This document shows, piece after piece, positions 2,340 to 8,511 of a DNA stretch of 64,000 nucleotides. How positions within the stretch are numbered: position 1 is the first letter of the stretch; every line of letters starts with the position of its first letter. The translations under genes and the position numbers were made by a program. The notes beneath the pieces are model-generated. The model made no database searches and was not told where the DNA came from. It saw nothing but the letters and a program-made list of their open reading frames with translations. Source of the stretch: Sulfolobus acidocaldarius SUSAZ (lineage in GTDB: Archaea; Thermoproteota; Thermoprotei_A; Sulfolobales; Sulfolobaceae); the NCBI GenBank assembly GCA_000508305.1, contig CP006977.1:1520621-1584620 (forward strand), given 5' to 3'.

Positions 2340-3623
2340 TTAAGACCGGATTAATTTCTCTTCAGTCTGTAATAGACTAGCGTAGTTTAGGTTCTCGGAA
2401 ACTACCTGAACTTCAGTTAATCCCTCACTAAGAACTTTGTTGGCGTCTTGTTTCTTTATTTTCATGGCGATCTTATCATTTACCTCAATACCAATCTCTT
2501 TAATCTCGAAATTATGGTCAACATAAAAGCTTAAACAATGCAGAAATTCACCAATATCTCCTGATCTAGCTTTCTCCACAATGTTTAGGTATACAGTTTT
2601 AATATTACTGGAGCTTGCTAGTCTGTTAACACTCGAATCTGCTGTTACTAGTACCACGCTCTCAGGTAAATACGACTTTAAGGTAACAGTTTCCTTGACA
2701 AGTGGTATATCTCCTGACCCCAGATTACCTACACTTATAGGTGGAGGGTGGAGTTTGTTAAATGTTGCCATAGCTAGATTGAACTTGAAAATGCTCTTGT
2801 CCTTCTGAGTCGATGTCACCTTATTGTTAAGCTCATTATAGGTAGCTTTTGATGGTAGGAGTCTTCTTCCATAGGTCTTTGAGTAAGTTAAGTATCTGAG
2901 CCTAAACCCTAGTCTTATATAAACGTTAGTGTCCGCAACAGTGAAGTATCCCTTCTCGACATTTTCCTTCAAATCTTTTTCCTCTCTATATCGCAAGAAG
3001 CCAGACCTAAAACCACATATGCTAATTTCCTCGTCATTGGAATCATGTACATATTTAACTAATTCTTCTATTGTATATGAGTCTCTATTAAGGGAAATCT
3101 TTACCTTACCTAGTAGAGAGTATATATTTATCAGGGCATTAAGGCTCTCGTTCGTTAGATATACACTCTTCTCATGACTTCTAGCAATCATTGGAGGATC
3201 CCACTCAACAGTTTCCCCAGACCTCATATCAAAAACTTTTATCTCGTTGAAGGGTATATATCCAAAGACTCTGTACCCGGAACTTTCATTCTTTACATAG
3301 ACGTATCTGACATGTTTTGCTTTTGAGTAAGCATATACTGATGTAGCCATGTACTTCCTCCCAGGGGTTATGTCAGTAACATCAACCTCAATTTCTGACA
3401 CTTTTTGTCTCCACTTTTCAATCCCCTCACCTATAACCTCAGTCCTCACAGTTGGTGTGACACCGAAGTATGATACCAATTCTTTAATGCCCTCCACACT
3501 CTTGGAGGGATGATCCTCAGATAGTATTACTATCTCATCAGGTATTACCCCCGTAAATATCTCTGTTAAAACCGCATTAGCTGTTGTCACAAGTTTATCT
3601 GACCCAAGCACCGCAAGTTTCAT
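2340..3623 (-). CDS. CARF-like domain fused to PIN ribonuclease domain
   Basis: The protein has 427 residues in two parts. Residues 1 to about 135 look like a CARF (CRISPR-associated Rossmann) domain: a first strand 'MKLAVLGSD', a helix, then 'VTDITPGRKYMA' at 82-93. This resembles the D-x-T-x-G-x-K loop that binds cyclic oligoadenylate in Csx1/Csm6-type sensors. Residues about 228-340 look like a PIN nuclease, with four acidic residues in the expected order: D231 in 'VADTNVYIRLG', E264 in 'SKATYNEL', D305 in 'GSGDIPLVKE' and D329 in 'LVTADSSVN'. I infer a ribonuclease switched on or off by the second messenger of type III CRISPR systems. No cas genes lie beside it. Domain assignment is by eye; a Rossmann domain of other specificity is the main alternative. 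Confidence 0.7.
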   Translation of the reverse strand: MKLAVLGSDKLVTTANAVLTEIFTGVIPDEIVILSEDHPSKSVEGIKELVSYFGVTPTVRTEVIGEGIEKWRQKVSEIEVDVTDITPGRKYMATSVYAYSKAKHVRYVYVKNESSGYRVFGYIPFNEIKVFDMRSGETVEWDPPMIARSHEKSVYLTNESLNALINIYSLLGKVKISLNRDSYTIEELVKYVHDSNDEEISICGFRSGFLRYREEKDLKENVEKGYFTVADTNVYIRLGFRLRYLTYSKTYGRRLLPSKATYNELNNKVTSTQKDKSIFKFNLAMATFNKLHPPPISVGNLGSGDIPLVKETVTLKSYLPESVVLVTADSSVNRLASSSNIKTVYLNIVEKARSGDIGEFLHCLSFYVDHNFEIKEIGIEVNDKIAMKIKKQDANKVLSEGLTEVQVVSENLNYASLLQTEEKLIRS

Positions 3624-3819: not shown

Positions 3820-4821
3820 TTAAAATCCGATATACGGTATTCCTCTTCCTAGACCAATGATAAGTAGTATAGCCGTAATAATATACAGTAATAAAGTCAA
3901 ACCGATTGCTATGTAATCTAATCGGTTAAAGACAATAGGTTTCATGTAGGTTCTCTTTGGCATAGCGTTGAACCCTCTAGTATCTGCAGCTATTGCAGTG
4001 TATTTAGCTTGCCTCATTAGAAATATAAGTGTGGGCACTATTCCGTAAAGACCACCCAATAGAAGGTAAAACGGTCTCAATGCCTTAGGCTTACCATAAC
4101 CCAATCCCCTCATCATCTGTAGCTTAACTATAGTGTCTAATGTATCGAATATCCTTGGTATGCTTCTCATGGCAACTGTCAATGCGAAGATAAATACCAG
4201 TGGAAATTTGACCTTTTCAAGATAACGCAATACATCAGATGGAGTTGTAGTTATAATAAGTAATAATCCAGATAACATGGGTGCAATGAACCTAAATGCA
4301 ACCTGAAAACCATAGTACAAAGCCTCTAACGTCAAACCTGGTTGATAACCCATGTAAACGAAATAAGATGGCCAGTACCAGATGACATGGAGTGTGTCTG
4401 TACCTATTGCTTGTGTCAGTATGTAGTACGGAGTGTAAAACGAGAAACTACTTACTACACCTAAAGATGTTGAGAAGGTTAAGAAGCTCGCGTACAAAAT
4501 TTTCTTCCCTGGGTTATTCAGGGTTAAGAACAAAAGTAGGTAAATTAAGGCTAATATGGCTCCAAACCACCATATTGTTAATGAAACAGCTATGGTCGTA
4601 CTGATCACTAAGATTAGCTTGGTTAATGGACTGATTTTGTAGAGGACACTCTCCCCCTTTTCAAAACGGGTAATTTCCATGAATCCCCTAATTCCAATTA
4701 AGCCTAAAATTATGACTATAGGTCCTATAAGTCCAAAGAAGAAGACGAGCCAGCTTATTACCTGATCTGCCACTGGTGGTACAAGCGGTGCCCAATTTAC
4801 CATACTTAGATAGATCACCAT
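3820..4821 (-). CDS. ecfT: ECF transporter transmembrane (T) component
   Basis: A 333-residue polytopic membrane protein, the last gene of a three-gene operon that runs S, A, T on the minus strand. It starts 4 nt after the ATPase stop. The cytoplasmic coupling region carries 'LQMMRGLGYG' and 'AADTRGFN', matching the two short Ala-Arg-Gly-type helices by which EcfT docks onto the ATPases. These are separated by the usual 60 or so residues. It acts in the plasma membrane as the scaffold linking the substrate-binding S protein to the ATPases for vitamin or metal uptake. The N-terminus has an extra hydrophobic segment before the conserved 'FEKGESVLYKISPLTKL'. The substrate is not evident. Confidence 0.85.
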   Translation of the reverse strand: MVIYLSMVNWAPLVPPVADQVISWLVFFFGLIGPIVIILGLIGIRGFMEITRFEKGESVLYKISPLTKLILVISTTIAVSLTIWWFGAILALIYLLLFLTLNNPGKKILYASFLTFSTSLGVVSSFSFYTPYYILTQAIGTDTLHVIWYWPSYFVYMGYQPGLTLEALYYGFQVAFRFIAPMLSGLLLIITTTPSDVLRYLEKVKFPLVFIFALTVAMRSIPRIFDTLDTIVKLQMMRGLGYGKPKALRPFYLLLGGLYGIVPTLIFLMRQAKYTAIAADTRGFNAMPKRTYMKPIVFNRLDYIAIGLTLLLYIITAILLIIGLGRGIPYIGF

Positions 4822-4825
4822 CTTT

Positions 4826-6403
4826 CTACCACCTGAGAAGGAAGTCTGAAGGTGGGTTTATTCCATATCTAGAGGAACTTATAAAAACTTCCTCTGGTCT
4901 ACCTTCGAGAACTTTCTTCCCATCACTTATTACTATTAACCTGTCGGCAAAATCATAGACAAATTTTGAATCATGTGTAACCACCAGAACAGTGTAGCCT
5001 TTGTCGGTAAGTTGGCGTAATTCTTTACCTAGGTTCATCTTATTTGAGTAGTCCTGACCTGAGGTTGGTTCATCCATTAACATAATTTTTACGCCTGAAG
5101 CTAAAACTGATGCCATAGCTACCCTTCTCCTCTCACCCATACTTAGTAACGTGGGATCCCTATCCCTATAATCGAATAACCCAAACTCTCTCATGTACTT
5201 CTCACTTATCTCCCTGTAGTTCTTTACTTTTCTCTTCTTCAAACTATACTCAATTTCCTTTCTCACTTGGTTTGTGACTAACATAAGGTCAAAGGACTGT
5301 GGCATATAAATCATGTATTTACCTCTATACCAGACGGGTTTATTGATTAGTTCCTCCCCTTGATATTTTATTGATCCCGTTATAGTGTATTCAGACGCAT
5401 CTAGAATTCCAGCTAACGCTTTCAGCGCAGTTGTCTTCCCTGCACCATTTTTCCCCATTATGGCAATTAGTTCTCCCTCCCATAAATCCAGAGAAAAATC
5501 TACTATCTGTTTTTCCTTAACATTAATCTTCAGGTTTGCAGCTAGTATCTTGTTCTCAGGAGTCCTCCTCTTAGGGTGTTCCAATTTAACATTATTTTGT
5601 GCTATCAATTTCTTCACTGTATCTAGATCCGGTGACTTGACTCCGAACTTTTTTGCATAAATGAAATACTCAGGTACTTCGACTCCAGCTGAATGTAAGG
5701 TCTCAGCTCCCTCCAATATTTCATCCTTTTCAAGGTCAAGTGAAACCTTACCCTTATCCACGAGAATAACTCTGTCCACAAATGGTAGTACCCTCTCCAC
5801 CTTATGTTCTACTATGATGAGTGTCTTTTGCCCCCTGAGGTCTTTCAGTGTAGAGAAAATTTGATCAGTTCCTTCCGGATCTATATTTGAAGTTGGCTCA
5901 TCTAATATTAGCACCTCTGGTCTCATGGTGAGGACAGAAGCTAATACTGTCCTCTGTAGCTCTCCTCCCGATAGCGTTGTAGTCTCCCTTCCCCATAAGT
6001 GTGATATCCCAGCTATCTCCATGGACTCCTTTACTCTCTCCACAATCTGTTCTGGAGGAAAATTCAGGTTCTCCGGTCCAAAGGCAACTTCTTCCTCCAC
6101 AGTGTAATTCACAACTTGGCTTTCAGGGTCTTGTAAGACTGTGCCTACAACTGTGGACAGCTTAGACAAAGGCGTATCCTTTACACTCTTCCCTAGTACG
6201 TAAACTTCACCTTTTAGATCTCCACTTGTCATATGGGGAATAATTCCATTAATGCAACTAACTAGTGTGGACTTACCTGATCCTGATCTACCTGTAATGA
6301 GTACCGACTCTCCCTTCTCGATGAAGAGTTCATCAACTGTTATAGCTGGTGTTGAATATCCCAAGTAAAAAAATTGTAATCCCTTTATCTCTACTGCGTA
6401 CAT
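4826..6403 (-). CDS. ecfA: ECF transporter ATPase, two ABC domains fused
   Basis: At 525 residues it holds two complete ABC nucleotide-binding domains in one chain, where many organisms have separate EcfA and EcfA'. Domain 1 has Walker A 'GRSGSGKST', the Q-loop 'LQDPESQ', signature 'LSGGE' and Walker B 'VLILDEPTSNID', with a switch His in 'VEHK'. Domain 2 has 'GKNGAGKTT', 'MPQSFD', a signature altered to 'LSMGE', Walker B 'IMLMDEPTSGQD' and 'VTHD'. ATP hydrolysis at this dimer drives uptake through EcfT and the S component. It lies 4 nt downstream of the S gene and 4 nt upstream of the T gene, so the three are surely cotranscribed. ATP-dependent uptake by this set is well supported; the substrate is not. 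Confidence 0.93.
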   Translation of the reverse strand: MYAVEIKGLQFFYLGYSTPAITVDELFIEKGESVLITGRSGSGKSTLVSCINGIIPHMTSGDLKGEVYVLGKSVKDTPLSKLSTVVGTVLQDPESQVVNYTVEEEVAFGPENLNFPPEQIVERVKESMEIAGISHLWGRETTTLSGGELQRTVLASVLTMRPEVLILDEPTSNIDPEGTDQIFSTLKDLRGQKTLIIVEHKVERVLPFVDRVILVDKGKVSLDLEKDEILEGAETLHSAGVEVPEYFIYAKKFGVKSPDLDTVKKLIAQNNVKLEHPKRRTPENKILAANLKINVKEKQIVDFSLDLWEGELIAIMGKNGAGKTTALKALAGILDASEYTITGSIKYQGEELINKPVWYRGKYMIYMPQSFDLMLVTNQVRKEIEYSLKKRKVKNYREISEKYMREFGLFDYRDRDPTLLSMGERRRVAMASVLASGVKIMLMDEPTSGQDYSNKMNLGKELRQLTDKGYTVLVVTHDSKFVYDFADRLIVISDGKKVLEGRPEEVFISSSRYGINPPSDFLLRW

Positions 6404-6407
6404 TAAT

Positions 6408-7124
6408 TTACACCTGTACAGCCTTGCCTACTCTATTTGCTGATAGTCCAGCCAATATTCCAACAATTACATCTCCGGGTATAGAAGCTACTAAGATAAA
6501 GAGAATCCTCGACCAATTTACTATAGCCCCATAAATAAATGGGTCGAAGAAGCCATAGAAGAATATAGGGTCAGGTATAGACCACAAAACCCCAAGTATT
6601 GCTCCTTCTAATGCTGATATAGCATTTACGTATGTCGGACCTTTGGTTAATCCTAATCCAAATATCTTTCCTCCTGTGAAAGCTATCATGAGGTCAATAA
6701 ATAGACCATATGTTAAAGCTTCATAAATGAAGAACATAGGTTCTCCACTGAATCCGTAATGGAAGAGGCTAGATAGAAGGTCAAATAAAAATAGGGATAT
6801 CATTCCTACGCCAACTTTTCTAACTAATCCCGCTACGATAAATATTATGAATATCCTTCCCCAAAACGGTATTTGAATGAAATTTGTAAGTCCTGATGGT
6901 ATTGCTCCTCCTGCTACCGCACCTATAATGAATTGCCAAATGTAAGCAGCTGCTGCTCCTATTCCAATGTATACCCAGTCAATAGTTTTGAATGCTTTTA
7001 ATCCACCTGTTCTTTTACCAAAAATGAAGACTACAACCAAAGCTATAATAAAGTAAGCAGCTATTACTTCAACTGGAATCTCTCCTGGTTTATTGGTATA
7101 AAATCCTATTCCGTTAAATGACAT
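6408..7124 (-). CDS. ECF transporter substrate-binding (S) component
   Basis: A 238-residue hydrophobic protein with about six membrane spans, first in the operon with the fused ATPase and the T component. Its place and size identify it as the substrate-capture subunit. I do not see the signature of a characterised S family such as BioY, ThiT, RibU or CbiM. Motifs such as 'GRIFIIFIVAGLVRKVG' and 'ASIPGDVIVGILAGLSANRVGK' suggest the conserved ends of an archaeal S family. The gene begins after an AT-rich promoter region. No riboswitch-like structure was recognised upstream, so the substrate (vitamin, metal or other) remains open. This is a dedicated (group I) system, because S, A and T are together. 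Confidence 0.75.
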   Translation of the reverse strand: MSFNGIGFYTNKPGEIPVEVIAAYFIIALVVVFIFGKRTGGLKAFKTIDWVYIGIGAAAAYIWQFIIGAVAGGAIPSGLTNFIQIPFWGRIFIIFIVAGLVRKVGVGMISLFLFDLLSSLFHYGFSGEPMFFIYEALTYGLFIDLMIAFTGGKIFGLGLTKGPTYVNAISALEGAILGVLWSIPDPIFFYGFFDPFIYGAIVNWSRILFILVASIPGDVIVGILAGLSANRVGKAVQV

Positions 7125-7861: not shown

Positions 7862-8095
7862 ATGGATACCAGTGGATATGTTACTGTATCTGCTAAAGTC
7901 CCTCGTGAGTTAAAGGAGTTGATGGACAAATATGGTATAAAACCTGGTCCAGTAATCAGGAAGGCATTAGAGGAGGAAGTAAGGAGGAGAGCAATTCAAG
8001 AGTTAGAAAAGGGACTCAAGGACTTAAAAGAGAAATCACATATATCAGATGAGGAGGTTGCAAGACTGATACGTGAAGATAGGGAAAGTCGTTGA
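7862..8095 (+). CDS. vapB: VapB-type antitoxin
   Basis: A 77-residue protein starting with a short strand 'YVTVSAKVPRELKELMDKYG', typical of ribbon-helix-helix or AbrB-like VapB DNA-binding ends. An acidic and basic helical tail follows ('EEEVRRRAIQELEKGLKDLKEK') that would wrap around the toxin. It overlaps the next gene, a PIN-domain toxin, by four bases (TTGA), the usual translational coupling in these pairs. It should neutralise VapC and autoregulate the operon. Sulfolobales genomes carry many such pairs, some linked to heat shock. Confidence 0.85.
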   Translation: MDTSGYVTVSAKVPRELKELMDKYGIKPGPVIRKALEEEVRRRAIQELEKGLKDLKEKSHISDEEVARLIREDRESR

Positions 8096-8511
8096 CCGAG
8101 TACCTGTTTGACGCAAGTTCAATCATAAACCTTATAAAAAGGGGCATCGTTTCCCCATTAGCTAATGGAGAGACATTAAACTTAGCGCTATATGAGTCCA
8201 TGAGTGCCGTATGGAAGGAATATCGGAAACTAAAAGTAATTAGTAGGGATTTAGCAGCAAAATACATAGGAGCAATAATAAAGGTGATGAACATAATACC
8301 CGTAAATTCCATCAATGGATCAGAAGAGGAAGTATTTGATTTAGCATTAAAGGAGGACTTGACTATCTATGATGCCTCCTATTTACTAGTCGCCATCAAT
8401 AGGAACCTCATATTAGTAACGGATGATAAGGTGTTGAGAGATAAGGCATCAAGGTACGTAATTGCTATGAGTACAAAGGAACTTCTCACCAGATCTGGAT
8501 TCGTAGACTAA
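8092..8511 (+). CDS. vapC: VapC-type PIN-domain toxin ribonuclease
   Basis: This 139-residue protein starts at a TTG that overlaps the vapB stop. It has the PIN signature 'YLFDASSIINLIKRG' (first catalytic Asp at residue 7). Later acidic positions lie in 'EDLTIYDASYLLVAINRNLILVTDDKVLRDKA', where two Asp residues belong to the metal-binding cluster. VapC toxins cleave RNA, commonly tRNA or rRNA, in the cytoplasm when VapB is degraded. Length and motif order are normal for the family. The target RNA cannot be predicted. The overlap with vapB decides the unusual TTG start. Confidence 0.88.
   Translation: MTEYLFDASSIINLIKRGIVSPLANGETLNLALYESMSAVWKEYRKLKVISRDLAAKYIGAIIKVMNIIPVNSINGSEEEVFDLALKEDLTIYDASYLLVAINRNLILVTDDKVLRDKASRYVIAMSTKELLTRSGFVD

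Follow-up and report, generated by a model that had tools for sequence, protein, structure and literature searches.

One gene in a 64,000-nucleotide stretch of the Sulfolobus acidocaldarius SUSAZ chromosome (the window, positions 1520621 to 1584620 of a single 2,061,920-bp contig) encodes a protein in which a CARF-type domain is joined to a PIN domain. Its position raises the question of whether a gene that stands far from any cas operon might specify a nuclease controlled by cyclic oligoadenylate (cOA). The open reading frame (window positions 2340 to 3623, minus strand) starts with an ATG at 3623, stops at 2340 to 2342, and encodes 427 amino acids. The evidence presented below indicates that the product, a member of the SiRe_0806 (CARF_m3) family, is very probably a cyclic tetra-adenylate (cA4)-activated PIN ribonuclease. 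This assignment is based on the domain layout and fold established here, which include a full-length PADLOC match, a cA4-bound ortholog (TM score of ca. 0.9), and invariant CARF and PIN residues. It is further based on the CRISPR setting of the host, which has a Cas10 with HD and GGDD motifs, type I-A and type III operons, CRISPR-like repeats, Crn1-like proteins, and Csx1-HEPN, and on relatives in which the gene abuts type III or cas1/cas2/CRISPR loci, together with a proximity statistic. Counted against it are the distance of 350 kb from Cas10 in the host and five relatives in which no Cas10 was detected.

Family and fold of the CARF-PIN protein

The PADLOC profile CARF_m3--CARF_PIN (PDLC01982) matched residues 1 to 426 of the window protein (E = 2.3e-162), and a second PADLOC profile, CARF_PIN (PDLC01068), matched nearly its full length (E = 1.1e-53). 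Pfam and NCBIfam searches with the window protein alone yielded no match. The sole full-length relative in the PDB (E = 7e-100) was SiRe_0806 of Sulfolobus islandicus, represented by two crystal structures released on 2025-07-23, one of the apo protein (9JXW) and one that is, according to the entry title, a complex with cA4 (9JXX). An alignment-based AlphaFold2 model had a mean pLDDT of 90.4 and a pTM of 0.88, and a single-sequence model with a pLDDT of 36 was discarded. Foldseek comparison of the retained model with 9JXW and 9JXX gave TM scores of 0.88 to 0.94 at ca. 42% identity, followed by matches to Can2, Card1, Cdn1, Cad1, Sis0455, and Sso2081 and, lower, to Csa3. Judged from these matches, the window protein is an ortholog of SiRe_0806, the protein crystallized with cA4, and belongs to a kind that is already known and profiled in PADLOC.

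The preliminary description had regarded CARF-PIN proteins as a minor, little-studied class. This underestimated what is known: the family is in PADLOC, an ortholog has been crystallized with cA4, and reviews name PIN among the effector domains activated by cOA, without biochemistry (PMC12669027, PMC7854544). No paper on the biochemistry of SiRe_0806 or of CARF-PIN proteins was found in the open literature searched.

The CARF domain, a Rossmann fold, spans approximately residues 1 to 150 (3174 to 3623, minus strand, as for all features of this gene) and was modeled as alternating strands and helices with pLDDT values of at least 90 in most blocks. The motif-I position, G7-S8-D9-K10, lies in the loop after strand 1 (3594 to 3605). 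The motif-II loop, D84-I-T-P-G-R-K90 (3354 to 3374), is the predicted ligand contact. An N-terminal CARF-type Rossmann domain with this DITPGRK loop had been proposed from inspection of the sequence, with a predicted fold unlike CARF named as the outcome that would speak against it; the PADLOC CARF profiles and the Foldseek matches of the AlphaFold2 model to CARF proteins instead bear the proposal out. A linker of helices and strands, with approximate boundaries taken from the AlphaFold2 secondary structure (residues ca. 158 to 220; 2964 to 3152), connects the CARF domain to the PIN domain.

A profile restricted to the PIN domain (residues 222 to 366; 2526 to 2960) matched the solved PIN domain 1O4W (E = 2.5e-4). 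The four acidic residues attributed to the protein at the outset were found at the same positions and aligned with those of 1O4W: D231 (2931 to 2933) with its first Asp, E264 (2832 to 2834) with its Glu, and D305 (2709 to 2711) and D329 (2637 to 2639) with the remaining two. Pfam PIN_4 was matched by 8 of the 29 family members. The match to 1O4W and the PIN_4 matches make the PIN assignment independent of the family name. The C-terminal extension (residues 367 to 427; 2343 to 2525) consists of strands and a helix that were mostly confident in the model, and it is poorly conserved.

Conservation of the CARF and PIN motifs

Orthologs were gathered by whole-genome searches, and 29 of them were aligned. 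Identity to the window protein was 92% for the ortholog in G032, a sister genome in the same genus, and fell to 32 to 33% in the most distant orthologs, with a mean column identity of 40%. Eight CARF residues (S8, K10, D84, T86, P87, R89, K90, and M92) and five PIN residues (D231, N233, E264, D305, and D329) were invariant. The retention of the motif residues at such low minimum identity reflects selection rather than chance. Binding of cA4 by the window protein is predicted, given the complex named in the title of 9JXX and the conservation of the motif loops.

A degenerate-pattern search of genome contigs and viral contigs found no relatives, and none were found in the phage and plasmid records searched, which gives no indication that viruses or plasmids carry the gene. 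In G114 (L029, L069) CARF-PIN is broken into two frames, and in G131 an additional, degraded copy contains a stop codon (L070); members of this family are thus both lost and duplicated.

The cOA pathway of the host

The host has a type III operon at ca. 1870 to 1879 kb that includes several genes for RAMP proteins and a gene for an 866-amino-acid Cas10 (ca. 1873 to 1876 kb). HDIGK and LGGDD motifs are present in this Cas10, and its cyclase motif is intact. PADLOC matches in the operon were to Cas10 and a Csm3-like protein. A type I-A operon (Cas3, Cas7a, and Cas8a) and frames packed with repeated CRISPR-like peptide units adjoin the type III operon. The genome also encodes two Crn1/CARF5-like proteins, at 818 kb and 1884 kb, and a Csx1-HEPN protein at 1003 kb (PF09455). 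The Csx1/Csm6 profile PDLC01031 matched only the Crn1-like proteins, a result that was not taken as evidence of Csx1 absence. The 818-kb Crn1/CARF5-like copy retains the GTS motif I. The 1884-kb copy (L035, 6498 to 7106, plus strand; genome positions 1884575 to 1885096), which lies beside CRISPR arrays, has GKT at this position and, to judge by that substitution, may bind cA4 without cleaving it.

These components suggest how the CARF-PIN protein might function. The host type III Cas10 would recognize viral RNA and synthesize cA4, which two CARF domains would bind through their GSDK and DITPGRK loops across a dimer interface. RNA would then be cut by the PIN domains, with D231, E264, D305, and D329 as their metal-dependent active site, slowing both cell and virus, and the Crn1 ring nucleases of the same genome would turn the signal off. 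Binding of the ligand by the window protein, activation of a dimer, RNA as the substrate, and the defense outcome are the parts of this scheme that we infer.

It is possible that the CARF domain not only senses cA4 but also cleaves it, functioning as a ring nuclease so that PIN activity times itself out. The motif-II GRK is the same as that of Crn1 proteins (G88-R89-K90 of the window protein is identical to G104-R105-K106 of Sso2081 [PMC10018336]), unlike the arginine-less motif II of Can2 and Card1, and S8 and K10 are invariant. However, motif I is GSD or GSN rather than GTS, which has been described as characteristic of CARF domains that degrade cOA (PMC10018336), and the same genome encodes separate Crn1-like proteins. 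The combination of a Crn1-like GRK with a GSD motif I makes ring nuclease activity possible yet less likely, and we consider a self-limiting effector rather unlikely.

Association with CRISPR loci in relatives

The host CARF-PIN gene is ca. 350 kb from the Cas10 gene, neither in nor beside the type III locus, a location that is common but not obligatory for genes of the type III cOA pathway, and no closer than expected by chance. This placement agrees with the initial impression of a stand-alone, probable cOA effector far from any cas operon, and the window had no RAMP or Cas10 match. Stand-alone position is normal for Sulfolobaceae CARF-PIN genes and is not remarkable. Some relatives are arranged differently. 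The ortholog in G096 directly follows a type III operon, and the one in G022 shares a 20-kb region with a type III Cas10 gene, beside what appear to be other cas genes. CARF-PIN genes in G008, G081, and G078 lie beside cas1/cas2-like genes or CRISPR arrays, calls that were made by eye on translations; a profile confirmed Cas1 in G078 alone, ca. 17 kb away. In the 21 genomes that carry CARF-PIN and Cas10 on the same contig, CARF-PIN was nearer to Cas10 than random positions were (Fisher combined P of ca. 5e-4; Kolmogorov-Smirnov P = 0.002), with related genomes treated as independent and coordinates rounded. This proximity is only supportive of a link to CRISPR loci. The Cas10 proteins of G096 (L039, 9189 to 11849) and G022 (L038, 914 to 3715) have LGGDE where that of the host has LGGDD.

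CARF-PIN was found in 28 of the 31 Sulfolobaceae genomes and Cas10 in 26. Since almost every genome of the family has each of them, their co-occurrence there is uninformative. Cas10 presence was scored with PDLC01444, since the Cas10 proteins of G096 and G119 escaped detection by PF22335 alone. Neither profile detected Cas10 in G011, G078, G108, G163, or G171, all of which have CARF-PIN; the assemblies are incomplete for G163 (93%) and G171 (87%). RAMP matches were also absent from G011, G078, and G171, and Cas1 matches from G011. All CARF and PIN motif residues are intact in the five genomes, as seen in the 29-ortholog alignment. Four of them (G011, G078, G108, and G171) retain Crn1-like proteins, and three (G011, G108, and G171) retain Csx1-HEPN. 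An apparent decayed remnant of a type III locus was found in G108, which favors recent loss of Cas10 there. In the five genomes, Cas10 may have been lost recently, or the signal may have a different source. The dN/dS ratio was 0.25 for the G011/G050 pair, compared with 0.13 in two pairs in which all genomes have Cas10, suggesting that CARF-PIN in the former is still under purifying selection that has perhaps been relaxed; the pairs are too few for a firmer statement.

The genomes without detectable Cas10 invite the explanation that a ligand not produced by type III Cas10 can also trigger the CARF domain and that the protein is a general stress RNase. Intact motifs in all five, together with the lack of RAMP and Cas1 matches in G011 and the wide distribution of the gene, speak for it. 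However, the ortholog was crystallized with cA4, the decayed-looking remnant in G108 indicates that losses may be recent, and the retention of Crn1 in four and Csx1-HEPN in three of the five points to the same cOA signal, making a general stress RNase improbable. We assign a similarly small chance to a variant in which CARF-PIN, along with Crn1 and Csx1, is maintained after Cas10 loss because a cOA-like ligand is produced or supplied independently of any chromosomal type III complex.

Gene neighborhood in the window

The neighbors of CARF-PIN in the window, a gene for a metallo-beta-lactamase-fold protein and a CbiQ/ABC transporter set, resemble housekeeping genes. This block is common to the host and G032, and gene order around CARF-PIN varies across the family. 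The transporter set (3820 to 7124, minus strand) is of the ECF type and comprises a CbiQ-like permease, a double ATP-binding protein, and a 238-amino-acid membrane protein that had no Pfam match and is perhaps the substrate-binding component. A VapBC-like pair at 7862 to 8511 (plus strand) consists of a 77-amino-acid antitoxin-like protein overlapping a 139-amino-acid PIN-domain protein, whose Pfam PIN match (1.4e-4) was slightly below the cutoff. The PIN catalytic core and the presence of this pair in the window might suggest that the CARF-PIN protein is itself a VapC-like toxin with a Rossmann regulatory domain and no tie to CRISPR signaling, but this is very improbable because no antitoxin-sized gene adjoins CARF-PIN in the open reading frame list of the window, the protein matches CARF profiles and has a cA4-bound ortholog, and CRISPR loci lie near CARF-PIN in relatives.

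Implications and comparison with known systems

Identification of the window protein as a probable cA4-activated PIN ribonuclease assigns to the CRISPR cOA pathway a gene found in nearly all Sulfolobaceae genomes. The host would accordingly be equipped with two ribonuclease effectors, one PIN and one HEPN, and with ring nucleases, every one of them at scattered loci. Genomes that keep cOA sensors without detectable Cas10 prompt the question of what supplies the signal.

The closest known counterpart is SiRe_0806, which is colinear with the window protein over the full length of CARF and PIN and has in common with it DITPGRKYMA, ADTNVYIRLG, and the four PIN acids; the two differ only by sequence divergence, including a loop at residues ca. 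180 to 200 that is longer in the window protein. The Crn1 ring nucleases Sso2081 and Sis0455 share the CARF fold and the motif-II GRK but have GTS rather than GSD at motif I and lack a PIN domain. Card1 and Can2 also sense cA4 with a CARF fold, whereas their nuclease is PD-(D/E)xK and their motif II is without the arginine. Csx1 and Csm6 resemble the window protein in combining CARF with a cOA-activated ribonuclease, but that ribonuclease is a HEPN domain, whereas the C-terminal domain of the window protein is PIN.
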